Part shown: positions 23,396 through 37,817 of the stretch, in pieces
Layout: every line of letters starts with the position of its first letter
How positions within the stretch are numbered: the first letter of the stretch is position 1
DNA from: Propionibacterium sp.
Lineage (GTDB): Bacteria; Actinomycetota; Actinomycetes; Propionibacteriales; Propionibacteriaceae
Reading direction: 5' to 3'
Length of the DNA stretch: 39,865 nucleotides
Assembly (NCBI GenBank): GCA_012517405.1
Contig: JAAYVB010000032.1
Coordinates: 1 to 39,865, forward strand
Program-made: the position numbers and the translations under genes
The notes under the pieces: model-generated
The model's database searches: none
Seen by the model: only the letters and a program-made list of their open reading frames with translations
Told to the model about the DNA's origin: nothing

Positions 23396-25768
23396 CTACC
23401 CGAGTTGGCCGTTCATCCACTCGATCCGGGCAGACAGCCAGCCACGCAGGTAGCTGACCTCACCTTCCCAGCTGCCCTGGATCACCTGCACATCCTCCAG
23501 ACGCTCGTTGATATCCCACCGTTCGAAGTTCACCTCGGACGATGTCGCGATCAGCTCGCTCTGATGCTGAACGAATGCATCGCTGCTGGTCAGAATGGGA
23601 TAAACCTGCTTCCAGCGGGCCTCTACCTGAGCCACGAACTGCGGATCCTCGAAAAGCCGGTTGATCCAGGTCTCGGCTGCCATCTTCGCCTCGATCTCGT
23701 CGTTCTGCTCACGCAAATACCAGCCAGTGGCATCTCCTTGCCCGGCCGGATACTGCGCCGCACCCATCGAGGTGTCGAAGTCCCAGATGGGACCGAAGTA
23801 CAGTTTGCCGTCAGCATCCGCGGTATCGCGAGTCTTGTACATATAGCAACTGGTGTAGAGATTCGCGTCCAGGTTCTTGGTCAATTCCTGGACGATGTAC
23901 CAGTCAACCAGCGAATCCTCATCGATGTAGTGCCGCCAACCGGTTACCGGATCATCGAAATCACTACTGAAGATGGCCTGGTCGGCCGCATTCAGGTAGG
24001 CGTCGATGTAGCTGATCTGCGCTTGTGTGATGCCGGAACCGTCATCTTCGTCCTCGGGCTCCGCGATCGCAACCGTGCCGGAGTCGCCGACCTCGATGTT
24101 GTGATCGCCACCAGCACGGAAATCCCATTCAAGCAGGTAGGTTCCGGTCACCTCCGGCGCCTGATCGTTGACACCACCTTGATTGTCCTTGAGCTCATTG
24201 TCCCCATCGGCCACACGTCCGCCGCCGATGTTGACCCGTTCCGCGAGGATATACGATCCCAGATACTCGCCGTTGACGATCACGTCGACCGGCACCGCAT
24301 CGGGAGTGAAAGCGAGGCCGTCGAACTGCTGCCCCAACCCCAGCGCGACCGTATTGCGAAGCAGCGAACGATCATAGTGATTCGCCACCAATGCCCACTT
24401 CTTACCGGAACCCATGCCGCACAGGTTGGCCTTCTTGTCGAGCCCGATCTTGTATGGCTTCTTATCGAGACCCCAGGTGTAACTGCCGCGACCGGCGATC
24501 TTTATCAACAGATCATCGGATCCTCCGCACGGAGTATCGGTGGTTCCCGCGGCCGCTGCCGCGGGAGTAATGGTCATTCGCGCTTCCCAATAGCGGTCCT
24601 TGCTCGAGACCGTATCGGCTTCGTTCGTGTCGATGTAAACCGTCGCCAGTCCGGTCGCAGAGTTCATCACCCGATGGGGCGCCGCATGTGACACGACATC
24701 GGTGACCAGTTGTTCTTCGGTATCAGGGCTTACCACCGCTCGATAGTCGTGAGAGATTCCCGGGGTATCCTCGACGGTGAGCCTGGCACGACCTGCTTCG
24801 TCGAGGGTTGTCGAAGCGACACCCACCCACTCCGGCGAGGTGACCTCGCTGGTCATGGTCGTCACGACGGTCTGTTTCTGCAAGACGATCGGACGCCCGG
24901 CCTGCGACTGCCCGAAATTGGCTGTCCACACCGCCGTGATGCCGCCGTCCGACACTACAAGCGGGGCCGCCGGTGACGAGTCGCGATTGTCCAGTCGGTA
25001 GATGAACGCGGCCATCGCATCACGATTTATCGCATCCAGATCACGGAACTCGGCGGTGCCATCACCCAGATCCCAACCAGTACTGATCTCCTCAGCGCTC
25101 AACCACGAGATCTGCAAGAAAAACTCGCTATCTGTCGGCACGTCAACAAACGGCGAAACCGCGGGCGCTACAAAGCTGGCGACATCCTCACCCAGAACCT
25201 TGTCCGCAAACCGGTACAAGAACGCAGCCATCGCATCACGAGAAATGCTGTCCAACGGGCGAAACTCGAATGTGCCATCACCAATATCCCAGCCAGTACT
25301 GATACCCGTAGACTCCAGCCACGAGATTTCCGTATAGAACTGGCTCGCAGATGGCACATCCGTGAACGACGACACCTCAGGGGCCGTGAACTCCGGGGAG
25401 CCCGCCAATCGATACAAGAATGCGGCCATCGCATCGCGAGCAATGGGCTGCAGCGGGCGGAACTCACGGGTATCGTCCGGCATCTGCCATCCCGTGCTCA
25501 GACCACTGTCCGTCAGCCACATAATGTCGTAATAGAACTGCATACCCTCGGGCACATCGACAAAACTGACCGGCACGTCCACCGCGGAGGGCGATGCCGA
25601 TGCCGACGATGTGAAGTCGGCGGGTGCGGCCATGGCCGGCACGCTCGAGGCGACGGGAAATATCGTCGCGATCATCATCGCTATCAGGCCAATGATCAAA
25701 GGCCTGCGCCGAGGGGTGGACCCGGAGGGTAAGGGATTTCTGCAATCATTAGTGCCATGGTCGCGCAT
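23396..25768 (-). CDS. Secreted CotH-kinase protein with three SLH-like repeats
   Basis: 790 residues. A Sec-type signal peptide follows PRRRP and probably cleaves at AMA|AP near residue 48. Three repeats of about 55 residues (68-122, 135-188, 207-260), each with F-x-DVP, F-Y/F, the STGW core and RDAMAAF-YR, match the actinobacterial SLH-like repeat and may anchor the protein to the wall. A beta-rich spacer follows, then a CotH domain (about 370-785): KIAGRGSYTWGLDKKPYK, WALVANHYDRSLLRN, DWYIVQELTKNLDANLY and GPIWDFDTSMG with the metal-binding Asp. CotH proteins are atypical kinases that phosphorylate extracellular proteins in spore formers. ATG 25768 has an AGAAAGAAA ribosome-site stretch. 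It is a single-gene unit; its substrate is unknown. Confidence 0.88.
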   Translation of the reverse strand: MRDHGTNDCRNPLPSGSTPRRRPLIIGLIAMMIATIFPVASSVPAMAAPADFTSSASASPSAVDVPVSFVDVPEGMQFYYDIMWLTDSGLSTGWQMPDDTREFRPLQPIARDAMAAFLYRLAGSPEFTAPEVSSFTDVPSASQFYTEISWLESTGISTGWDIGDGTFEFRPLDSISRDAMAAFLYRFADKVLGEDVASFVAPAVSPFVDVPTDSEFFLQISWLSAEEISTGWDLGDGTAEFRDLDAINRDAMAAFIYRLDNRDSSPAAPLVVSDGGITAVWTANFGQSQAGRPIVLQKQTVVTTMTSEVTSPEWVGVASTTLDEAGRARLTVEDTPGISHDYRAVVSPDTEEQLVTDVVSHAAPHRVMNSATGLATVYIDTNEADTVSSKDRYWEARMTITPAAAAAGTTDTPCGGSDDLLIKIAGRGSYTWGLDKKPYKIGLDKKANLCGMGSGKKWALVANHYDRSLLRNTVALGLGQQFDGLAFTPDAVPVDVIVNGEYLGSYILAERVNIGGGRVADGDNELKDNQGGVNDQAPEVTGTYLLEWDFRAGGDHNIEVGDSGTVAIAEPEDEDDGSGITQAQISYIDAYLNAADQAIFSSDFDDPVTGWRHYIDEDSLVDWYIVQELTKNLDANLYTSCYMYKTRDTADADGKLYFGPIWDFDTSMGAAQYPAGQGDATGWYLREQNDEIEAKMAAETWINRLFEDPQFVAQVEARWKQVYPILTSSDAFVQHQSELIATSSEVNFERWDINERLEDVQVIQGSWEGEVSYLRGWLSARIEWMNGQLG

Positions 25769-26025: not shown

Positions 26026-26862
26026 TTACAGACGTGAGGATTGGGAGCCGAGTTGCCAGATCCGATGGGGAATCAACTGATCGATCGTCTCCACGAGATA
26101 GTCCGGCCTTTGATCGGGAGCAGCCTCCGCGACATCCTCGCGGGTGCTGTCGCCAGTGAGGACCAATGCCGAGGCCATGCCGGCAGCCCGGCCCATCGCG
26201 ATGTCGGTGCCGAGCCGATCGCCGACCATGAGGACGTCCCTGGGGTCGACGTCCAGCCCGGCGATCGCCTCGTCGATCATGATGGCTCCTGGCTTGCCCA
26301 GATTGATCGAGCACTGCACGCCGGTGCAGGCCTCGATCGCAGCGGTGATCGCCGCGCAATCCGGTTCGCCGCGTCCGCCCGGGAAGGGGCAGTAGCGGTC
26401 CGGATTGGTCTGCACCAGGAATGCCCGCTTGTAGAACCAGAGGGCGTCGAACGCGATCTGGAGTTTGCGGTAGTCGAACGTCCGGTCGTAGGACGCCACC
26501 ACGATGTCGATCTGTTCGGGATCGTCGCTGAGCCGGATGCCGGCCTTCGTCATGGCTCGGATGAGTGGCTGCTCGGCGATCGGGAACACCACGGCATGAG
26601 GATGGTGTGCCAGCAGCCAGCGAACCGTGGTGACCACGGTGTTGGCGATGTCGTCCACAGGGGTGGGCAAGCCGAGCCGGCTGAGTTTCGCGGCGTACAG
26701 TTCCGGGTCCTTGGTGGGATTGTTCGACAAGAACCGCACTGGGATGTCCCGTTCGCGCAAAACCCGTAACCCCTCGTGGACGCCGGGCAGGACGTCATCG
26801 CCCAGGTAGATGGTGCCATCCATGTCGAACACGTAGGCGCTGTAGAGGCGTTCGGGACGCAT
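26026..26862 (-). CDS. HAD-IIA sugar/polyol phosphatase, AraL/NagD-like
   Basis: 278 residues of the HAD class IIA (NagD-type cap) family. The nucleophile motif is VFDMDGTIYLGD (Asp13/Asp15), motif II is FLSNNPTKDPELYAAKLSRLG, motif III Lys in NLGKPGAI, and the acidic motif is MVGDRLGTDIAMG. Such enzymes dephosphorylate small sugar or glycerol phosphates; Bacillus subtilis AraL belongs here and is encoded next to AraM, exactly as this gene follows an AraM homologue. ATG 26862 is chosen because GAGGAG lies six bases upstream; an in-frame extension to 26967 would read through an 18-bp tandem repeat. It is the last gene of the polyol PTS operon. Confidence 0.85.
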   Translation of the reverse strand: MRPERLYSAYVFDMDGTIYLGDDVLPGVHEGLRVLRERDIPVRFLSNNPTKDPELYAAKLSRLGLPTPVDDIANTVVTTVRWLLAHHPHAVVFPIAEQPLIRAMTKAGIRLSDDPEQIDIVVASYDRTFDYRKLQIAFDALWFYKRAFLVQTNPDRYCPFPGGRGEPDCAAITAAIEACTGVQCSINLGKPGAIMIDEAIAGLDVDPRDVLMVGDRLGTDIAMGRAAGMASALVLTGDSTREDVAEAAPDQRPDYLVETIDQLIPHRIWQLGSQSSRL

Positions 26863-26883
26863 CGTTTCTCCTCGCTCGTCGAT

Positions 26884-26953
26884 TGTCGCTGTCTGCTCAG
26901 GTGTCGCTGTCTGCTCAGCTGTCACGGTCTGCTCAGCTGTCACGGTCTGCTCA
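26884..26953 (-). repeat. Four 18-bp tandem repeats starting at the araM-like stop
   Basis: The unit TGAGCAGACCGTGACAGC, with variants, is repeated with period 18; TGA occurs at 26953, 26935, 26917 and 26899 (first base, minus strand). The first TGA is the stop codon of the AraM-like gene, and since 18 is a multiple of three the later ones are in-frame back-up stops. The array fills most of the gap before the HAD gene. Confidence 0.85.
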
Positions 26954-28297
26954 GGTCCACAGGCCACCGGGAGCGAACACCTCGTCGACCAGTTCTGCGA
27001 ACCATCCGATCTCGCGGCTCACATCGAGCACGGTGTAGCGCGAGCGGTAGTACATGGCGCGCGGAAAGGTGGCCTTCAGATCGGCGAGCGTCAGGCCGAT
27101 CTGCTCGGGATGAGTCGGGGTGCCCGCCGCAGCCAGCGAGCGCTGCAGAGTAGCTGCCGGCACCAGTTGGGCCTCCAGCCGGGGCCGCAGGGACGGCCAG
27201 TCGTCCACCAGCGTCTGGACGCGGACGCGTAGCCCGTCGGCGTCCACGTACTTCTCGCGGGTCTCCCGCACGCCCTTCTCGGCCAGCGCACCGGTGAGCT
27301 TCGAGCGGATGTCCGCCTCGAGTTCATCCCAGGTCGGCCAGGCGGCGACGACGGCGTCCACATCGATGGATGCCAGGTCGCGCTGCAAGAACCGCTCGTA
27401 GAAGGCAGTCATCGCCAAGGTGCCGATCGCGACCTTGAAACCGTGCGACAGCGGTGGGTCGAGCTCGGCGCCGAGATGATCGAGTTCCCACAGGTGGCTG
27501 AAATAGTGCTCGGCGCCGGAAGCCGGCCGCGTGCCCTTGTAGACCTGCATGGCCAAGCCGGACAGCAGCAGGCCCTTGACCAGGCCCTCATAGGCATCGG
27601 GGTCTCCGGCAGCCAGGGCCTCGGGCCGCGACAGCGCCTCGGAGACACCGCCCTGCACCAGGTTCCAGGCGAGCGGGTCGATGGGGTCGAGCCCGATCGC
27701 GTCCGACAGGATCCAGTCGGCGCCGGCGGGGATCTTGGCGGCGAGATCGCCGTAGCCGGATGCCACCATGGCCTTCGGCGCCGCAGCCGCGACGTCGAGG
27801 TCGAAGATCACGACGGCCGGGGCGGGGCACGGCATGGTGATCTTGATGCCGCCCTGACTCATCGGTGCACCGAAACCGGAGTATCCGTCCATGGATGCCG
27901 CTGTCCCGACGACCGCGTATGGCTGGCCGAGTTCCCCGGAGGCCAGTTTGACCAGATCGTTGAGCGTCCCGGAGCCGACCGCGACACCCAGTGCGTCCGT
28001 CTCGCGCAGGCGTTCGCGGACCTCTTCGGCGTGCTCGTAGGCGGCATACAGCGTCGGGGTGCCGGGGAAGATCAGCGGCTCGGCCTGCAGCAGACCCGCC
28101 TGCGCGATGGACTCTGCGACGGCCTTCCCGGCGGCCGTCCAGGTGCGCTCATCGGCCACGATGAGCAGCGGCCGCTCGGCCTGGACGAGTGACTGGGCGA
28201 GGATCTCACCGGAGCGCGGCAGGATGCCTCGTCCCACTTCGATGACTCGGGTGTCGCTCGCGTGTGTCAGGCCTTCGGCGATGGATTCCTTCTTCAT
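26951..28297 (-). CDS. AraM-like sn-glycerol-1-phosphate dehydrogenase family protein
   Basis: 448 residues of the iron-containing alcohol dehydrogenase superfamily, G1PDH/AraM branch, which reduces dihydroxyacetone phosphate to sn-glycerol-1-phosphate or the reverse with NAD(P)H. The dinucleotide loop GSGTLND is at residues 108-114, AASMDGYSGFGAP near 133-144. The metal ligands fit D184 (GYGDLAAK), H264 or H268 (GAEHYFSHLWE) and H285 (LSHGFKVAIG). Bacillus AraM is Ni2+-dependent. ATG 28297 has AAGGAG five bases upstream. It sits inside a glucitol-type PTS operon where sorbitol-6-phosphate dehydrogenase (an SDR) would be expected, so it probably oxidises the imported polyol phosphate; that is inference. 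Confidence 0.85.
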   Translation of the reverse strand: MKKESIAEGLTHASDTRVIEVGRGILPRSGEILAQSLVQAERPLLIVADERTWTAAGKAVAESIAQAGLLQAEPLIFPGTPTLYAAYEHAEEVRERLRETDALGVAVGSGTLNDLVKLASGELGQPYAVVGTAASMDGYSGFGAPMSQGGIKITMPCPAPAVVIFDLDVAAAAPKAMVASGYGDLAAKIPAGADWILSDAIGLDPIDPLAWNLVQGGVSEALSRPEALAAGDPDAYEGLVKGLLLSGLAMQVYKGTRPASGAEHYFSHLWELDHLGAELDPPLSHGFKVAIGTLAMTAFYERFLQRDLASIDVDAVVAAWPTWDELEADIRSKLTGALAEKGVRETREKYVDADGLRVRVQTLVDDWPSLRPRLEAQLVPAATLQRSLAAAGTPTHPEQIGLTLADLKATFPRAMYYRSRYTVLDVSREIGWFAELVDEVFAPGGLWT

Positions 28298-28348
28298 GGT
28301 TTCTCCTTCGATCGATGATCGGGGTGGTGGGGATGGGTCGTTCTGGGC

Positions 28349-28606
28349 TCATCGAGGTTCGGACAAGGCGTGAATCACGGCCTCCAGCGCCTCCTGCTCG
28401 TCGAGGCCATCCGCCCAGACGAGAACCTGATCTCCTTGCTCGAGCCCGAGCGCGAGCACGTTCACGACGTGCGCTACGCTCGCGCTGCGATCCGCGGAGC
28501 GCAGGAAGATGCTGCTGGAGTAGCGACCGGCGAGTTCGGCTAGGTTGTGGGCCACCAGGGCGTGCACGCCCTCGGGGTGGCCCACGACGACGTCTCGTCG
28601 GATCAC
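28349..28606 (-). CDS. Divergent HPr-family phosphocarrier of the polyol PTS operon
   Basis: 85 residues with the HPr length and fold pattern. His15 is present in HPEGVHALVAHNL, the active-site helix, but Arg17 and Pro18 of the classical HARPA motif are Leu and Val. The segment aligned with the regulatory Ser46 helix reads SVAHVVNVLALG, placing His at 46, so HPr-kinase-type regulation seems lost. It starts at GTG 28606, overlapping the srlB stop by four bases. A dedicated phosphate donor for this PTS, or a regulatory partner of the PRD protein, is plausible; a conventional general HPr is expected elsewhere in the genome. Confidence 0.8.
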   Translation of the reverse strand: MIRRDVVVGHPEGVHALVAHNLAELAGRYSSSIFLRSADRSASVAHVVNVLALGLEQGDQVLVWADGLDEQEALEAVIHALSEPR

Positions 28607-28971
28607 AACTGCTCGATCACGAACGTGCTGCCCACCTCGAGGCGTGGCACTTCCTCGCCCTCGACATGAATGGCCCCGTGCATATAGGCCGATTTCTGGC
28701 CGTCGACGATGACCGTGACGTGACCCAGGTTGTCCAGGTTCTGGCGGGCCACCGAGCCGACGGCGGTGATCGGGTACTGCTCGCCGTCCAGCACCAGCAC
28801 CTGACCCGCCTGAAGATCCGCGGTAGTGCGGGCCGATGCGTCGACGAGGAAGCAGAACTCACGCAGCGCGTCGGGAGCCTCCTCGCCGAAGGTGACGAGC
28901 ATGCCCTGGGCGATGAAGGAGCTGGCCTCGGGCCCGACCTCGGTAACGGTGGTGCGATAGATCTCGGTCAT
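28603..28971 (-). CDS. srlB: PTS glucitol/sorbitol-type IIA component
   Basis: 122 residues, the full length of the IIA-Gut family, which passes phosphate from HPr to IIB. It shows the family start MTEIYRTTVTEVG, FCFLVD, YPITAVGSVARQNLDNLGH with the conserved His84, and HVEGEEVP near the end. It is cytoplasmic. ATG 28971 follows AAAGGAAG about a dozen bases upstream. It overlaps the HPr-like gene. Confidence 0.93.
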   Translation of the reverse strand: MTEIYRTTVTEVGPEASSFIAQGMLVTFGEEAPDALREFCFLVDASARTTADLQAGQVLVLDGEQYPITAVGSVARQNLDNLGHVTVIVDGQKSAYMHGAIHVEGEEVPRLEVGSTFVIEQL

Positions 28972-28998
28972 GATGACTGACTTCCTTTCGTGTCGTGT

Positions 28999-30060
28999 CT
29001 AGGACGAGTAAAGGCCGATACTGGCAAGCCAGGCCACTGCAACACGCGGGACGCCGTTAAGGAATCGCGAGTAGAGCACAGACGGCACGCCCACCTCGAC
29101 GGTCTCCGGTCGGGCCTCCGCCAGACCCAGTCCGACAGGGATGAAGTCGGCGGCATTTTGGGTATTGATGGCGAACAGCGCCGGGAGCGCGAGGCTCGGC
29201 GGGATGTTGCCCTTGCCGATCTCGACACCGATGAGGGTCCCGATGATCTGGCCGATGACGGCGCCCGGCCCCAGCAGCGGCGACAGGAATGGCAGGGAGG
29301 CGATGAAGCCGAGAGCCATCAGTCCCCAGCCGGTGCCTGCCAGCGGGGTGAGCAGGCTGGAGAACCAGTTGCCGAAGCCCGAGGCGTTGATGATGCCGAT
29401 CAGCATCGCGACGAAGCCCATGAAGGGGATGACCGTGCCGAGCATGGTCTGCACGGCGTCGCGGGCGGCCTGGTAGAAGATCGACACGACCCGGCCTGCG
29501 CCCAGGCCGATCTTCTCGAGCAGGGACTTCTTCTTCTTCTCGGCAATGGTCTGCGAGATCTTCTTGTCGGTGCTCCAATCACCCTTGACGGTGAAGGCAG
29601 GTCCGCCGTCGGAACCGCCGGTGCCCTGGGCACCTTCGGAAGCGGTGGCGCTCGCGGCGCCGACGGAGACCAGGGCCTCCGCCTCATCGGCAAGACGCAC
29701 CTGCTCGGGACCGACCGCGGAGACGTAGAGCTCCTCGGTGATGAACTGGGCAAGAGGACCGGTCTTGCCGGTGGGCATCACGTTGACTGTGGAGATGCCC
29801 TTCTTCGGGTACAGGCCGCAGCGAAGCGTCCCGCCGCAGTCGATGACCGCGACGAAGATCTCGTCGTCGGGTACCGACGTCTTGAATCCGTTGACGGCTT
29901 CGGCGCCGGACAGTTCGCAGATCCGGTCGACGACCTCCGGCTTCATGCCGCCGCCGACGATGTAGACGACCTTGTTTCGCTGCTCGGTGGGAGTCAGTGT
30001 CAGGGGTCCTCCGAAGCCGCCGCCGCCGCGCTCAATGACAATGGTGTGGTAGTTGGACAT
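28999..30060 (-). CDS. srlE: PTS glucitol/sorbitol-type IIBC component
   Basis: 353 residues. The IIB domain (about 1-120) has the phosphorylated Cys75 in [16 protein letters not shown], after the family opening [15 protein letters not shown] Gly/Ala-rich linker leads to a membrane domain (about 175-350) with several hydrophobic helices, [14 protein letters not shown] and FINTQ-type [23 protein letters not shown] segments. IIBC phosphorylates the polyol during import. ATG 30060 lies eight bases after the srlA stop; the ribosome site overlaps the end of srlA. Confidence 0.95.
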
Positions 30061-30068
30061 GTGGAGCG

Positions 30069-30620
30069 TCACCCTTCCATGTGGGGTTCGAGGCTGAGTT
30101 CGACACCCTGCTGCTTGCTGACGTAGGCGGTGGTGAAGTCGGTCACCCAGCCGGAGACGAAGTTCATGACGAGGCCGACCAGCAGATACCGGATGGCCAG
30201 TGGCCCGGTGCTCAGGCCGAGCGTCATGACGCCCTGGGCGATGCCGAGCCAGATGAACAATTCGGCCGGGTTGATGTGCGGGAAGACGCCGTTGCTGGTG
30301 TGGCAGAACTGCGCGGCGCTGGCGAAATAGCTGGGCTTGTAGCGCTCGGGCATGAACCGCCCCAGCGAGTGCACCATCGGGTTGGCCAGCATGAACGCTC
30401 CGATGAACGGAAGCAGCATGTAACGGCTCACCGGGTTGTGGGACGCCTTGCCGGCGAAGCGGTTGACCCGGTTCTCGCCGACCAGTTGAATCAGTGAGTT
30501 CATTGCGATCAACAGCATGAGGACGAGAGGCACGATGCTGCCCATCCAGCTGATGAAGACATCGGCTCCGGCCTGGAATAGGCCGACGAACCACTCGGCG
30601 GCGCGCACGAGTATATCCAT
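30069..30620 (-). CDS. srlA: PTS glucitol/sorbitol-type IIC2 component
   Basis: 183 residues, the expected size of the GutA/SrlA membrane subunit that forms the translocation path with SrlE. Family blocks are [40 protein letters not shown], and [19 protein letters not shown]. Of two ATGs six bases apart, 30620 is chosen because AAGGA then has six-base spacing; 30626 would touch it. The strong conservation of these blocks indicates a real Gut-family porter, though not necessarily for sorbitol. Confidence 0.95.
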
Positions 30621-30674
30621 GATCATTCCTTCGTAGATGTAGTGGGTGGTGGGGCTTATGGGGTTACGGACAGG

Positions 30675-31133
30675 TCAGGCCGTGGCCACCGGACGGCGCC
30701 GAACAAGTCGGCCGGCAGCGAGGCTGATCTGGGCGAGCGGGCCGGGCGGATCCAGCGGTTTCTTACCGGCCAGCACGGTGCGGTAGTTGTCGCGGGCATT
30801 GGCCACCGCCGCGCGCACCGGCCTATTGAAGCGCCGGTCGGTTTCGGGTGTGAGTTCGGCGAGTTCGCAGCCGTCGAAGGCATCGAAGACGCGGAACCGA
30901 GACAGCACGGTGACCCCCGAGAGCTTGTGGCCCTCGACGATGCGTCCGTCGTCGTCGAGCAGGAACAGCACCAGCGCACCCGCGGAGAGCAGGCCCTGCT
31001 TCTTGCCGAGCGCGACCCGGCCGCGACGGCGCAGGCTCGTGAACGTGGCGGCGAAGTTCTTCGACTGCCTCAGCGCCAAGAACGTCTGGGTGAGGTAGAC
31101 GACCGCGAACGCGATCAGGACGGTCCAGAACAC
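30675..31133 (-). CDS. gutM: GutM-family operon protein
   Basis: 152 residues of the GutM/SrlM (glucitol operon activator) family. It opens with a hydrophobic helix (FWTVLIAFAVVYLTQTFLAL) and then a soluble part with FAATFTSLRRRGRVALGKKQG and GRIVEGHKLSGVTVLSRFR. In Escherichia coli GutM raises transcription of the glucitol operon, but the membrane helix suggests membrane-linked sensing. It starts at GTG 31133; its GAGGAG site overlaps the stop of the regulator gene. Confidence 0.88.
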   Translation of the reverse strand: MFWTVLIAFAVVYLTQTFLALRQSKNFAATFTSLRRRGRVALGKKQGLLSAGALVLFLLDDDGRIVEGHKLSGVTVLSRFRVFDAFDGCELAELTPETDRRFNRPVRAAVANARDNYRTVLAGKKPLDPPGPLAQISLAAGRLVRRRPVATA

Positions 31134-31142
31134 TGCTTCTCC

Positions 31143-33041
31143 TCAGGTGGTCGGGTTGGACTGCAGGTTCTCCATGAAGTAGAAGAACTGCTCGTAACTG
31201 GTCAGGCGGGAGATCTTCGCCACCGCGGCGGCGTTCCCGCCGAGCCGGATGATCTCGTCGTAGACACGGATGAGAACGGTGTCGTCGTAGGCGACCTTCT
31301 GCGGGACGGCCATCAGGAACACCACGCGGATGCCGGCCTCGGAGTCGGCTCGCGGCACCACGCCGAGCGCGCACACCGGGGTGACCAGCGTGGGATCGGT
31401 GGCGTGGGGAAAGGCGAGCCGGTCGTCTAGTTGCATGGTGGCCCGCGCCTCGCGGGCGGCAATGGCCGCCTCGAACCCCTCGCCGACCAGGCCGGCCTTC
31501 CGCAGCGCGTCGATGAGCAGCTGGGTCGCCTCCGGGTAACCGGCGTCGGTGGGGAGGCGGACGAACCGGTTCTCGTCGATCAGGGACACCAGCAGGGAGC
31601 CTGCCGCTGCCGGGGCGAGCGGGCCGAGGGTGGGTATCCGCAGCGCGTTCAGCCGGCGAGTCACTGCCTGCCGGTCGAACAGCTCCGACAGCTCGAGTGT
31701 GGGACGGTTGGTCGATACCCGGGCGCCGGGGGTGGTGACGACCAGGTCGCTGGCATCCAGGTCACCGGGTGCGCAGTCGGGGACGATCGTGTAGCGCGTA
31801 CCGGCGGGGAGCAGCGTCGCAAGGTGGGACCGAACCAGGCGCGCGGTGGCCGGGCCGTGCCCCGAGACGATGGTCACCGACATCTCATGCTGTTGCCGCG
31901 CGGCATAGTCGACCAGGAAGACCTGGAAGTAGGTGGTGAGCAGCGACAACTCGCCCGCTTCGACGACCAGCCCGGTCTCCTGCTGGATCTCTTCGGCGGC
32001 GATCGTCGCCATCCGGTGAGCCAGTGGGTATTCCTCCTCCAGCCGCCCGGGCTGTGCGTCGGTGGCCAGATGCAGCGAGTAGCGCAGCCTGTTCACAAGG
32101 AACGTGACGTGCTGGGTGAACTCGCGGACGAGCTCGGCGGTCGCGAGTCGCACGTCCATCTCATTGGCCACCCGGTCGAGGATCCGTTCCACGAGGGCAC
32201 CGGCCAGCTCGGCCGAGCGCCAGGTGCCGCCGGGGCCCTCCGAGCCAGTCATCCGCATCCCAGCAGCGGGCAGCGCCAAGAACAGCACCTCCTCGTCGGG
32301 CAGCCGTTCATTCAGCAACGGCTCGACGGCCGCAGTCAAGGCCCGGGCCAGGTCGTGAGCGGGAGAATCTGCCAGATCGGCGTAGAAGGCCGGGAGAGTT
32401 CCGAGCGGCTGGTTGTTCAGGTAGCGATCAAGCACGACCGTCAGCCAATCCCGCATGACCTCGCGATTGGCTGCAGTCAGTCCGTGCTCCTCAAGCACCT
32501 GTTCGACAGCGCCTTGGAGCTCACCGCCCAGCGGATAGCCACGGTAGGCGGCTGCGTAGGCGTGGTCGAGGATTGCCAGCCGAATGCCCAGCTCAGGACC
32601 CGCGAGCGTCAGGCCCACGCGGGTTCTGCCCTCGATCCTCACGCCGTACGGTGCCAGCAGCATCCGGACCTGGGCGATGTCCGCGACCACGCTGGTGCGG
32701 CCGAGCCGCATGTCTAGCGCGAGGTCCTCGATGCGCACCGGCCTCAGGCTGTGCAGCAGCCGGGCGAGGATATAGGCCGCGCGCCATTGCGGGTCGTTGA
32801 ACGACTCCTGCACGATCGTTAGCCGGTCACGGACCCGGCGATACGCATCGGCGTCGACGATCAGCAGACGGTAGCGTCCATCGCTGAACCGGATCGAGGC
32901 GGCGGTGCCGAGGCTGTTGTTGAGTTGAGCGACATCGGTGCTGATGGTGCGGGCTGCGACGCCGCAACGCATCGCCAGAGCATCCTTGGCGACGGAATCC
33001 GCCGACTCCAGCTGCAGCAGAATGCTGACTGCTCGGTTCAT
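31143..33041 (-). CDS. PRD-domain transcriptional regulator (BglG/MtlR type)
   Basis: 632 residues: N-terminal HTH (about 1-60, VAARTISTDVAQLNN), an Mga-like helix (85-150), two PTS regulation domains (about 165-400), an EIIB-like domain (about 400-490) whose usual Cys is missing (SVTIVSGHGPATARL), and an EIIA-Mtl/Fru-like C-terminus with FPHATDP as the phosphorylatable His. Such proteins activate sugar-alcohol PTS operons according to PTS phosphorylation. ATG 33041 has AGGAG six bases upstream; longer in-frame starts lack a site. It is the first gene of the polyol PTS operon, 9 bp before gutM. Confidence 0.92.
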   Translation of the reverse strand: MNRAVSILLQLESADSVAKDALAMRCGVAARTISTDVAQLNNSLGTAASIRFSDGRYRLLIVDADAYRRVRDRLTIVQESFNDPQWRAAYILARLLHSLRPVRIEDLALDMRLGRTSVVADIAQVRMLLAPYGVRIEGRTRVGLTLAGPELGIRLAILDHAYAAAYRGYPLGGELQGAVEQVLEEHGLTAANREVMRDWLTVVLDRYLNNQPLGTLPAFYADLADSPAHDLARALTAAVEPLLNERLPDEEVLFLALPAAGMRMTGSEGPGGTWRSAELAGALVERILDRVANEMDVRLATAELVREFTQHVTFLVNRLRYSLHLATDAQPGRLEEEYPLAHRMATIAAEEIQQETGLVVEAGELSLLTTYFQVFLVDYAARQQHEMSVTIVSGHGPATARLVRSHLATLLPAGTRYTIVPDCAPGDLDASDLVVTTPGARVSTNRPTLELSELFDRQAVTRRLNALRIPTLGPLAPAAAGSLLVSLIDENRFVRLPTDAGYPEATQLLIDALRKAGLVGEGFEAAIAAREARATMQLDDRLAFPHATDPTLVTPVCALGVVPRADSEAGIRVVFLMAVPQKVAYDDTVLIRVYDEIIRLGGNAAAVAKISRLTSYEQFFYFMENLQSNPTT

Positions 33042-36592: not shown

Positions 36593-36825
36593 GGTTGACG
36601 CGTCTGCGGCTTCGGCATCGGTATCGCCGCGCTGCGGGAGCTTTCCAGCACGTCTGCCAGCGTCTCGTGCGCGGCGCCCAACCGTTGGAGTTGCTCGGTC
36701 ACCGTCAGCTGTTGCGTGCCGGCAAGGGCAGCCAATGCCGAATCGATGATCCGGTTGCCGGTGACCGGAGGCTCGTCCGGGTTCGGTTCGTGGCTGTCCT
36801 GTGGGTCGTACCCGGTGGTGGTCAC
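36589..36825 (-). CDS. Small conserved actinobacterial protein of the tlyA operon
   Basis: 78 residues with no recognised domain: an acidic, Pro-rich start (DSHEPNPDEPPVTGN) followed by a helical segment (IIDSALAALAGTQQLTVTEQ) and a disordered end. Both ends use 4-base GTGA overlaps with the HAD gene and tlyA, which is strong evidence that it is a real gene. Its position corresponds to the small hypothetical gene Rv1693 between Rv1692 and tlyA in Mycobacterium tuberculosis. Function unknown. Confidence 0.8.
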   Translation of the reverse strand: MTTTGYDPQDSHEPNPDEPPVTGNRIIDSALAALAGTQQLTVTEQLQRLGAAHETLADVLESSRSAAIPMPKPQTRQP

Positions 36826-37817
36826 GGGAGCTGGTCCAGCACATCGAGGGCGTCCGCGGCATCCAAGGAGCCGTCCCGCCAGGTGAGTTGGACGATCGCC
36901 CACAGCGCGTCCAGCTGTTCGTCAACGGTTATCAGCGGACCGTCGAGGCGGACGACCCCACCGTAGACGTATGCCCGCGCGCCACGGCAGAGCACCTCGT
37001 CGTCGTGCCAGGACGCTTCGCGCCGCGGCGCGAGCAGGCCCCGCAGATTCCAGCCGATGGCCGTCGGATGCTGCTGAGGAATAGCGTTGACCAGGTCTGT
37101 CTTGCCATGCGCGCCGGTAAACACCATGAACGAGTCGATGCCGACATTGTGGGCACCCTCGATGTCGGTGTCCAGCCGATCGCCGACGAAAACCGGTCGG
37201 CGGGCCTGCATGCGGTTGATGGTCTCTTGCAGCAACGGCGGGTAGGGCTTCCCGGCGACCGTGATCGGGGTGTCTCCGACTGCGGTGCGCAGCGCCTCGA
37301 TCTGCGCGCCGGCGCCGGGCACCAGGCCCAGGTCGGTCGGCCGGTTGATGTCGGTATTGGTCCCGAACCAGCGGGCCCCGCGCTGGATCGCGAAGCAGGC
37401 GTTGTCCAGACTGGGCCAGGACAGATCCGGGTCATAGCCCTGAACCACCGCTGCCGGCTCCTCACGGAAATCCGTCACCACGGTGAAACCGGCCGCGGCG
37501 ATCTCGTCGGTAAGAGCCTGAGCGCCGCAGACCTGAACCTTCGCTCCCTCCGGCAACTCCCGGCGCATCAGCTGGGCGATGGCCTGCGGGCTGGTGACGA
37601 CATCGGCCCGATGGCACTCGATGCCCAGGACGTTCAGATGGTCCACCACCACGTCGGCGCTGCGTCCGGCGTTGTTGGTGACAAAGCCGACCTTCACGCC
37701 AAGCCTGCGGAGTTCTCCGAGACTCTCCGGAGATCCCTCGACCGCGCGCGGGCCGAGGTATACGACCCCATCGAGATCGAACATCGCGGCGTCATAGGCA
37801 TCGATGAACCGGGTCAC
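36822..37817 (-). CDS. HAD-IIA phosphatase, Rv1692-like
   Basis: 331 residues. DLDGVVYLG with Asp14/Asp16 is the nucleophile motif, FVTNNAGRSADVVVDHLNVLG motif II, Lys in VAGKPYPP motif III, and VFVGDRLDTDIEGA the acid motif. A C-terminal extension (about 270-331) follows the HAD fold, as in Rv1692, which was shown to be a glycerol-3-phosphate phosphatase recycling glycerophospholipid headgroups. Synteny supports this role, but substrate remains inferred. It starts at GTG 37817 overlapping the TPR gene stop by four bases. Confidence 0.88.
   Translation of the reverse strand: MTRFIDAYDAAMFDLDGVVYLGPRAVEGSPESLGELRRLGVKVGFVTNNAGRSADVVVDHLNVLGIECHRADVVTSPQAIAQLMRRELPEGAKVQVCGAQALTDEIAAAGFTVVTDFREEPAAVVQGYDPDLSWPSLDNACFAIQRGARWFGTNTDINRPTDLGLVPGAGAQIEALRTAVGDTPITVAGKPYPPLLQETINRMQARRPVFVGDRLDTDIEGAHNVGIDSFMVFTGAHGKTDLVNAIPQQHPTAIGWNLRGLLAPRREASWHDDEVLCRGARAYVYGGVVRLDGPLITVDEQLDALWAIVQLTWRDGSLDAADALDVLDQLP

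Follow-up and report, generated by a model that had tools for sequence, protein, structure and literature searches.

How does a bacterium process the polyol phosphate delivered by a glucitol-type phosphotransferase system (PTS) when the operon contains no gene for SrlD, the dehydrogenase of the sorbitol operon? This question is raised by a contig of 39,865 nucleotides from Propionibacterium sp. (JAAYVB010000032.1, assembly GCA_012517405.1), the whole of which we refer to as the window. Eight genes running from 33041 to 26026 on its minus strand encode, in this order, a PRD-type regulator, GutM, the PTS components SrlA, SrlE and SrlB, an HPr, AraM of the glycerol-1-phosphate (G1P) dehydrogenase family and AraL, a HAD-IIA phosphatase. 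All eight are present in the order given by the original prediction, made from the DNA letters, and with the short gaps or overlaps that it described. AraM and AraL are the enzyme genes of the operon, and no short-chain dehydrogenase/reductase (SDR) of the SrlD type is found among its genes. Both SrlA and SrlE meet the equivalog cut-offs of the glucitol/sorbitol families. We regard the operon as a conserved variant of the sorbitol-type PTS operon with AraM in the slot of SrlD, its function being predicted. AraM would oxidize sorbitol 6-phosphate, the predicted product of the PTS, a reading to which we assign a rough probability of 0.46, slightly below even odds.

The draft assembly (genome G000), 3.17 Mb in 46 contigs, includes the window as contig C10. 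A single-contig genome of the same species (G229) has the same locus, and the nearest named relative is Propioniciclava soli, with 87% identity in AraM.

Conservation of the PTS-AraM linkage

We surveyed 293 genomes of the order, of which 45 have EII-GUT and 88 an AraM match, taking the gene content of the fetched loci from a codon-usage gene caller. The survey comprised 51 EII-GUT loci in three sets. Among the Propionibacteriaceae (group f1), AraM lies within 3,805 bases at 26 of the 30 EII-GUT loci scoring at least 250 bits. AraM accompanies none of the f1 loci below 250 bits (0/12) and none of the loci in group f3 (0/9). The eight-gene operon is confirmed as real, and its arrangement is beyond chance: in the family, the PTS and araM are linked at 26 of the 30 loci that resemble the window's in type. 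These counts are partly dependent, since G000 and G229 are one species, and they include three genomes with a split or short AraM (G276, G150 and G215), which were left out of the tree described below. The split araM genes are those of G276 and G150, Cutibacterium modestum (L088, L105).

At three of the four exceptions without AraM (G245, G095 and G164), an SDR of the sorbitol-6-phosphate dehydrogenase family NF004817 scores above cut-off at the locus, and none other of 35 genomes has a match above cut-off. The fourth exception (G056) has only a GpsA-like gene at the locus. The linkage and the occurrence of the SDR in AraM's place both support the earlier proposal that the AraM homologue oxidizes the imported polyol phosphate, but SrlD-like SDRs in 17 of the 26 AraM-linked genomes tell against it, as discussed below. 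Eleven of the 21 loci in the two sets without AraM (f1 below 250 bits, and f3) were fetched, and each of the 11 (L108-L118) has genes from a single cluster, of which the one member tested is a DRL-type oxidoreductase. These loci have a sugar-binding-domain regulator and the DRL-type oxidoreductase instead of SrlD or AraM, as judged from one tested member per cluster.

The araM/araL pair had been predicted to be conserved with the PTS genes, which holds for AraM; AraL occurs at only 12 of the 26 AraM-linked loci, which counts against our reading, so the AraM-AraL pair is not obligatory. The phosphatase gene is adjacent downstream at seven of these loci, the window included, and divergent upstream of the regulator at five. 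No AraL was found in the stretch at the other 14 loci, one of which (G119) is near a contig end. In the operons of two of them (G092 and G062), no catabolic enzyme other than AraM was recognized.

Several variants of the locus were also observed. At 10 of the 26 AraM-linked loci, the regulator has a GpsA-like gene as its neighbour, the family being named from one tested member. This dehydrogenase of the glycerol-3-phosphate-dehydrogenase family, which would have a stereochemistry opposite to that of AraM, stands beside AraM clusters in L095-L104 (10 genomes), L106, L126, L161, L164 and L172. P. soli has a second locus (L080 and L152) with srlB, araM and a divergent araL and with no IIC or IIBC gene. 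At locus L126 of G229, perhaps a relic of another such locus, AraL and a C-terminal piece of AraM accompany the GpsA-like gene and a sugar-binding-domain regulator. A class-wide scan of 296 genomes, the window's own included, found AraM at E<=1e-60 in two and EII-GUT in four, too few to judge the spread beyond the family.

SrlD-like dehydrogenases in AraM-linked genomes

We searched 35 genomes with each of two curated SrlD families, NF009050 (SrlD) and NF004817, at E<=1e-40. The predicted lack of SrlD in the operon was borne out, and the window's own genome, G229 and Acidipropionibacterium acidipropionici (G092) have no match to either family at this threshold. NF004817 matches five of the 35 genomes, namely the three with a locus SDR above cut-off and, more weakly, G202 (183 bits) and G205 (141 bits).

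The results with NF009050 weigh against AraM as the sole sorbitol-6-phosphate dehydrogenase. Nineteen of the 35 genomes match at E<=1e-40, none of them above cut-off, and 17 of these matches fall in AraM-linked genomes, three at the locus and 14 elsewhere. The original prediction had named an srlD homologue under the same regulator as one of two findings that would refute it, and three relatives show this in part: in A. thoenii (G200), A. virtanenii (G039) and G205, the operon with AraM adjoins a gene for an SrlD-like SDR, scoring 217-228 bits against a cut-off of 307. The loci of G200 and G039 also carry a transaldolase-like gene, and the named loci L149 and L150 have the SDR, the transaldolase-like gene, the PTS and AraM all together. 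In addition, 13 of the 14 unlinked SDRs are 53-65% identical to the A. thoenii locus SDR, and these 13 may therefore have a role in sorbitol use.

We nevertheless read the unlinked SrlD-like SDRs as members of other pathways. No PTS gene was found around the 14 in AraM-linked genomes or the one in G056, in 15 fetched stretches of 9 to 15 kb each. A cluster encoding proteins of 819-820 and 433-455 amino acids (aa) is common to 11 of them (G221, G192, G036, G119, G080, G180, G059, G280, G292, G215 and G056). The SDRs of G098, G202 and G196 sit in open frames of 649-678 aa and are therefore fused to another domain, and the SDR of G048, 28% identical to E. coli SrlD, lies in an unrelated cluster.

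These data bear on the idea that sorbitol 6-phosphate is handled by a different dehydrogenase, for example the SrlD-like SDR, with AraM and AraL as accessory enzymes that clear by-products. The SDRs below cut-off in 17 of 26 genomes agree with it, as does the sugar-phosphate detoxification proposed for AraL (the accessible part of PMC3207120), and our search covered two SrlD families among all possible dehydrogenases. On the other hand, nine of the 26 AraM-linked genomes (G000, G229, G092, G062, G071, G150, G225, G276 and G237), the window's own and A. acidipropionici among them, have no NF009050 match at E<=1e-40, and neither the 26/30 linkage with an SDR in AraM's place nor the operons of G092 and G062 favour a mere accessory role. 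We consider this idea improbable.

AraM, AraL and the predicted reaction

The closest solved structure to AraM, both by sequence and by fold (fold E 1.1e-21; 24% identity in the fold alignment), is 9h4x, titled B. subtilis AraM. The AlphaFold model of the window's AraM has a mean pLDDT of 90. Four residues, D137, H264, H268 and H285, are the same in all 101 AraM sequences compared, and D184 is kept in 100 of the 101; these five correspond to the metal and substrate residues of G1P dehydrogenase. K152 and K188 are shared by the window's AraM and 9h4x in the sequence alignment. AraM scores far below the G1P-dehydrogenase equivalog NF002022 (130.3 bits against a cut-off of 413), which tells against our reading, and also against AraM being a true G1P dehydrogenase that is co-regulated with the PTS and takes no part in polyol breakdown. 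The latter seems very improbable to us: although B. subtilis AraM is reported as a G1P dehydrogenase in the available part of its description (PMC13400652), the AraM studied here is found in association with a single PTS type and with FGGY kinases, and at three loci its position is taken by an SDR of the sorbitol-6-phosphate dehydrogenase kind.

In the pathway that we favour, the glucitol-type PTS would import sorbitol as sorbitol 6-phosphate, and AraM, in which the phosphate presumably lies near the reacting carbon, would oxidize it at the carbon adjoining the phosphate to L-sorbose 1-phosphate. G1P dehydrogenases react at the carbon adjoining the phosphate, and sorbitol 6-phosphate has a D-carbinol next to CH2OP, as in sn-glycerol 1-phosphate (stereochemistry derived, not computed). 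L-sorbose 1-phosphate is the predicted product because this D-carbinol matches the sn-glycerol-1-phosphate stereochemistry of the AraM family. AraL, whose best PDB relatives are HAD-IIA-type phosphatases, may dephosphorylate the product of AraM or relieve its build-up. L-sorbose 1-phosphate is only slightly favoured over fructose 6-phosphate, since no gene was recognized at the locus for its use and the three sorbitol-positive species with a genome in our set are sorbose-negative in the accessible part of the strain tests (PMC6920887), both of which count against it.

A variant of our reading, with overlapping odds, is that AraM oxidizes sorbitol 6-phosphate at C2 to fructose 6-phosphate, the reaction of SrlD, and that AraL is an unspecific safety phosphatase. 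Such a reaction would depart from the position at which G1P dehydrogenases act and would be redundant in the three genomes whose locus encodes AraM together with an SrlD-like SDR. It would require no further enzyme in operons without AraL at the locus (for example G092 and G062), it accords with the SDR in AraM's place in three genomes, and B. subtilis AraL is a low-specificity sugar phosphatase in the accessible part of its characterization (PMC3207120). We judge this variant somewhat unlikely.

Sugar use and the EII-GUT locus

Published sugar tests, set against gene presence in a few species, suggest that sorbitol is the substrate. In the accessible part of a strain comparison (PMC6920887), API tests for sorbitol are negative in three A. 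jensenii strains and positive in A. virtanenii, A. acidipropionici, A. thoenii and A. microaerophilum, and in that of another (PMC4437456) none of 21 P. freudenreichii strains ferments sorbitol. EII-GUT is absent from the genomes of the A. jensenii type strain (G239) and P. freudenreichii (G113); A. acidipropionici (G092) has one, linked to AraM, and A. virtanenii (G039) and A. thoenii (G200) have two each. Sorbitol use tracks the EII-GUT locus in these five species of one family. The second EII-GUT and the SrlD-like SDR of A. thoenii and A. virtanenii weaken this match, and A. acidipropionici is the only clean case because it alone has neither. C. acnes type IC strains do not ferment sorbitol according to the accessible part of PMC3772855, an observation not used as evidence here, and sorbitol is not mentioned in PMC3408437 or PMC6560440.

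The original prediction had suggested a short polyol rather than sorbitol as the substrate, which the same tests do not favour. Erythritol, adonitol and both D- and L-arabitol are positive in all strains tested, A. jensenii included (the accessible part of PMC6920887), and a short polyol was set aside as the substrate, given that A. jensenii uses these four compounds without any EII-GUT. For xylitol, two A. jensenii strains are positive and the type strain negative, A. virtanenii and A. acidipropionici are positive, and there are no data for A. thoenii (same part of PMC6920887). As with sorbitol, two species that have the locus use xylitol and the A. jensenii type strain does not, and in this respect the phenotypes do not single out sorbitol.

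AraM phylogeny and kinase-linked clusters

We collected the genomic contexts of AraM in a table of 117 rows, excluding pieces below 380 aa; 100 rows remained after removal of near-copies. A quick tree was calculated with 100 rows, in which the window took the place of one same-species copy. The PTS-linked AraM, 25 in number, all group in a single clade that has 48 rows and an SH-aLRT support of 100. The rest of this clade comprises eight AraM beside an FGGY kinase without a PTS, five with AraL only and 10 without a recognized partner. Since both contexts occur in one clade, AraM can be retained through an exchange of its phosphorylating partner between PTS and kinase. The AraM of this clade that adjoin an FGGY kinase are found in L069, L070, L071, L131, L138, L139, L142 and L147, from Nigerium, Peptidiphaga, Ancrocorticia, Tessaracoccus, a Brooklawnia metagenome-assembled genome and others.

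The two FGGY kinases tested from this clade score best, below cut-off, in the ribulokinase and xylulokinase models. To judge from these matches, the kinases beside AraM hint at a pentitol, which speaks against sorbitol. The operon could then take up a pentitol such as ribitol, D-arabitol or xylitol, AraM would produce a ketopentose 1-phosphate, AraL would dephosphorylate it, and AraB or XylB encoded elsewhere would phosphorylate it again. The window's own genome has a second AraM (46% identity) on contig C40, beside genes for ribulokinase, L-ribulose-5-phosphate 4-epimerase and a xylulokinase-like protein, and ribitol 5-phosphate and D-arabitol 5-phosphate fit the derived AraM stereochemistry. 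The replacement of the PTS by FGGY kinases within one clade, the paralogous clusters combining AraL, FGGY kinase, AraM and L-ribulokinase, and the xylitol tests, in which A. virtanenii and A. acidipropionici use the compound and the A. jensenii type strain does not, point in the same direction. Nevertheless, A. jensenii has no EII-GUT and can still use adonitol, D- and L-arabitol and, in two strains out of three, xylitol, SrlA and SrlE exceed the glucitol/sorbitol equivalog cut-offs, and the SDR in AraM's place at three loci is a sorbitol-6-phosphate dehydrogenase. We consider uptake of a pentitol unlikely.

The paralogous clusters have the order DeoR-RpiB-membrane protein-AraL-FGGY-AraM-AraB-(AraD)-transketolase and were found in A. 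jensenii (L193, 4492-16043), A. acidipropionici (L221) and P. freudenreichii (L120). Their families were tested in L193 and L120, the remainder being assigned by similarity or by eye. This cluster is a candidate ribitol or erythritol route. L-erythrulose 1-phosphate was reportedly described in P. pentosaceum, which we take to be A. acidipropionici, in work of Wawszkiewicz dated 1968. In the accessible part of the P. freudenreichii comparison, the araB-araM-araL locus is filed under arabinose and the use of erythritol and adonitol could not be reconstructed (PMC4437456).

A wider proposal, distinctly unlikely in our view, is that AraM and AraL form a general bacterial polyol route. AraM would turn D-configured polyol phosphates into ketose 1-phosphates by oxidation at the carbon adjoining the phosphate, AraL would free the ketose, and a second kinase would rephosphorylate it at the other end. 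The PTS would feed sorbitol into this route, and the FGGY kinase would feed the ribitol/erythritol route of propionibacteria, in which ribitol might pass through ribitol 5-phosphate, L-ribulose 1-phosphate and L-ribulose to AraB and AraD, and erythritol through L-erythrulose 1-phosphate. If true, it would explain the presence of both genes in arabinose operons.

Operon layout and the degenerate HPr

The features of the operon are collected in Table 1. The genes are separated by gaps of 8 to 51 bases, apart from an overlap of 4 bases between srlB and the HPr gene and the 88 bases between araM and araL. The ATG of araL is preceded by GGAG, as judged by eye. An alternative GTG start at 26967 would make araL overlap araM; the reading frame is open from this GTG through the 18-base repeat, which is in frame with araL. 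The regulator has an HTH_11 match below cut-off, and SrlB falls short of the cut-offs of the models TIGR00849 (126.6 bits against 189.55) and NF007696 (113 bits, also below cut-off).

Table 1. Features of the glucitol-type PTS operon in the window.
Feature	Product or description	Position	Strand	Match
PRD-type regulator gene	regulator with C-terminal EIIA-like domain, 632 aa from ATG	31143..33041	-	PF00874 38 bits, PF00359 31.8 bits, both above cut-off
gutM	glucitol operon activator-like protein, 152 aa	30675..31133	-	PF06923 91.2 bits
srlA	glucitol-type PTS IIC, 185 aa	30069..30626	-	NF049923 315 bits (cut-off 150)
srlE	glucitol-type PTS IIBC, 353 aa	28999..30060	-	NF049924 504.7 bits (cut-off 400)
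srlB	glucitol-type PTS IIA, 122 aa	28603..28971	-	PF03829 126.4 bits (cut-off 25)
HPr gene	degenerate HPr, 85 aa	28349..28606	-	TIGR01003 57.8 bits (cut-off 47.9); PF00381
araM	glycerol-1-phosphate-dehydrogenase-family enzyme, 448 aa; proposed polyol-phosphate dehydrogenase	26951..28297	-	PF13685 100.3 bits (cut-off 28)
araL	HAD-IIA (NagD-like) phosphatase, 278 aa from ATG	26026..26862	-	TIGR01460 100.6 bits (cut-off 100.15)
Tandem repeat	18-base unit, 3.6 copies, in the interval from araM to the araL ATG	26891..26954	none	Tandem Repeats Finder

The HPr had been called divergent, which is true of its sequence only, because the gene lies on the same strand as the operon. The active-site histidine is retained, and the HARP motif of HPr reads HALV (sequences compared by eye). 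Among the operon HPr sequences, the proline of HARP is substituted in 19 of 19 and the arginine is replaced by leucine in eight of 19. HPr sequences of a second type have an intact HARP in all 11 cases, and 10 of the 11 adjoin a gene for enzyme I (EI). In the window's own genome there is an EI gene above cut-off, another HPr gene scores 73 bits, and contig C11 holds an HPr match together with an EI-like one, so that two HPr matches exist besides that of the operon; the presence of EI and these HPr agrees with our reading.

The PRD gene is split in G229 (L121). Downstream of the operon, at 23396-25760, the window carries a gene whose product has a CotH kinase domain and also matches an S-layer homology domain. 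A second HAD-IIA phosphatase gene (36822-37817) lies beyond recN and an NAD-kinase-like gene, the latter two named by eye.

Comparison with known systems

The IIC-IIBC-IIA order is shared with the E. coli operon srlAEBD-gutM-srlR-gutQ, with identities of 55% for SrlA, 52% for SrlE, 40% for SrlB and 31% for GutM. In contrast to the E. coli operon, the operon in the window lacks SrlD, SrlR and GutQ and has the PRD regulator, the degenerate HPr, AraM and, as at 12 of 26 loci, AraL. AraM and AraL families also stand side by side in araABDLMNPQ-abfA of B. subtilis, which is an arabinose operon, whereas the genes here belong to a PTS operon and no araABD is present at the window locus. The AraL-FGGY-AraM-AraB(-AraD)-transketolase cluster of Propionibacterium, Acidipropionibacterium and Cutibacterium encodes a paralogous AraM (46-49% identity), likewise with AraL in L193, L221 and L120, but has a kinase instead of the PTS, together with L-ribulokinase, RpiB and transketolase. 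The glucitol PTS loci of G245, G095 and G164 have the same PRD-gutM-srlA-srlE-srlB-HPr order and differ in that the regulator adjoins the NF004817 SDR and AraM is absent from the locus. Among the titles and abstract openings returned from an open-licence library, we found none joining AraM or G1P dehydrogenase with a sorbitol PTS; one paper that contained both terms of a search concerns diet in mice, to judge from its title and opening.

Implications

If the proposed role of AraM is correct, a family known from archaeal-type lipid synthesis would perform polyol catabolism in SrlD's place in much of the Propionibacteriaceae, a family with food uses and members occurring on skin. Automatic pipelines may mistake such enzymes for glycerol-1-phosphate dehydrogenases or assign their genes to arabinose use. 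For the AraM/AraL pair of arabinose operons, so far unexplained, there would be a concrete reaction open to assay. There would also be candidates for the erythritol and adonitol routes that, in the accessible part of the P. freudenreichii comparison (PMC4437456), were not reconstructed.

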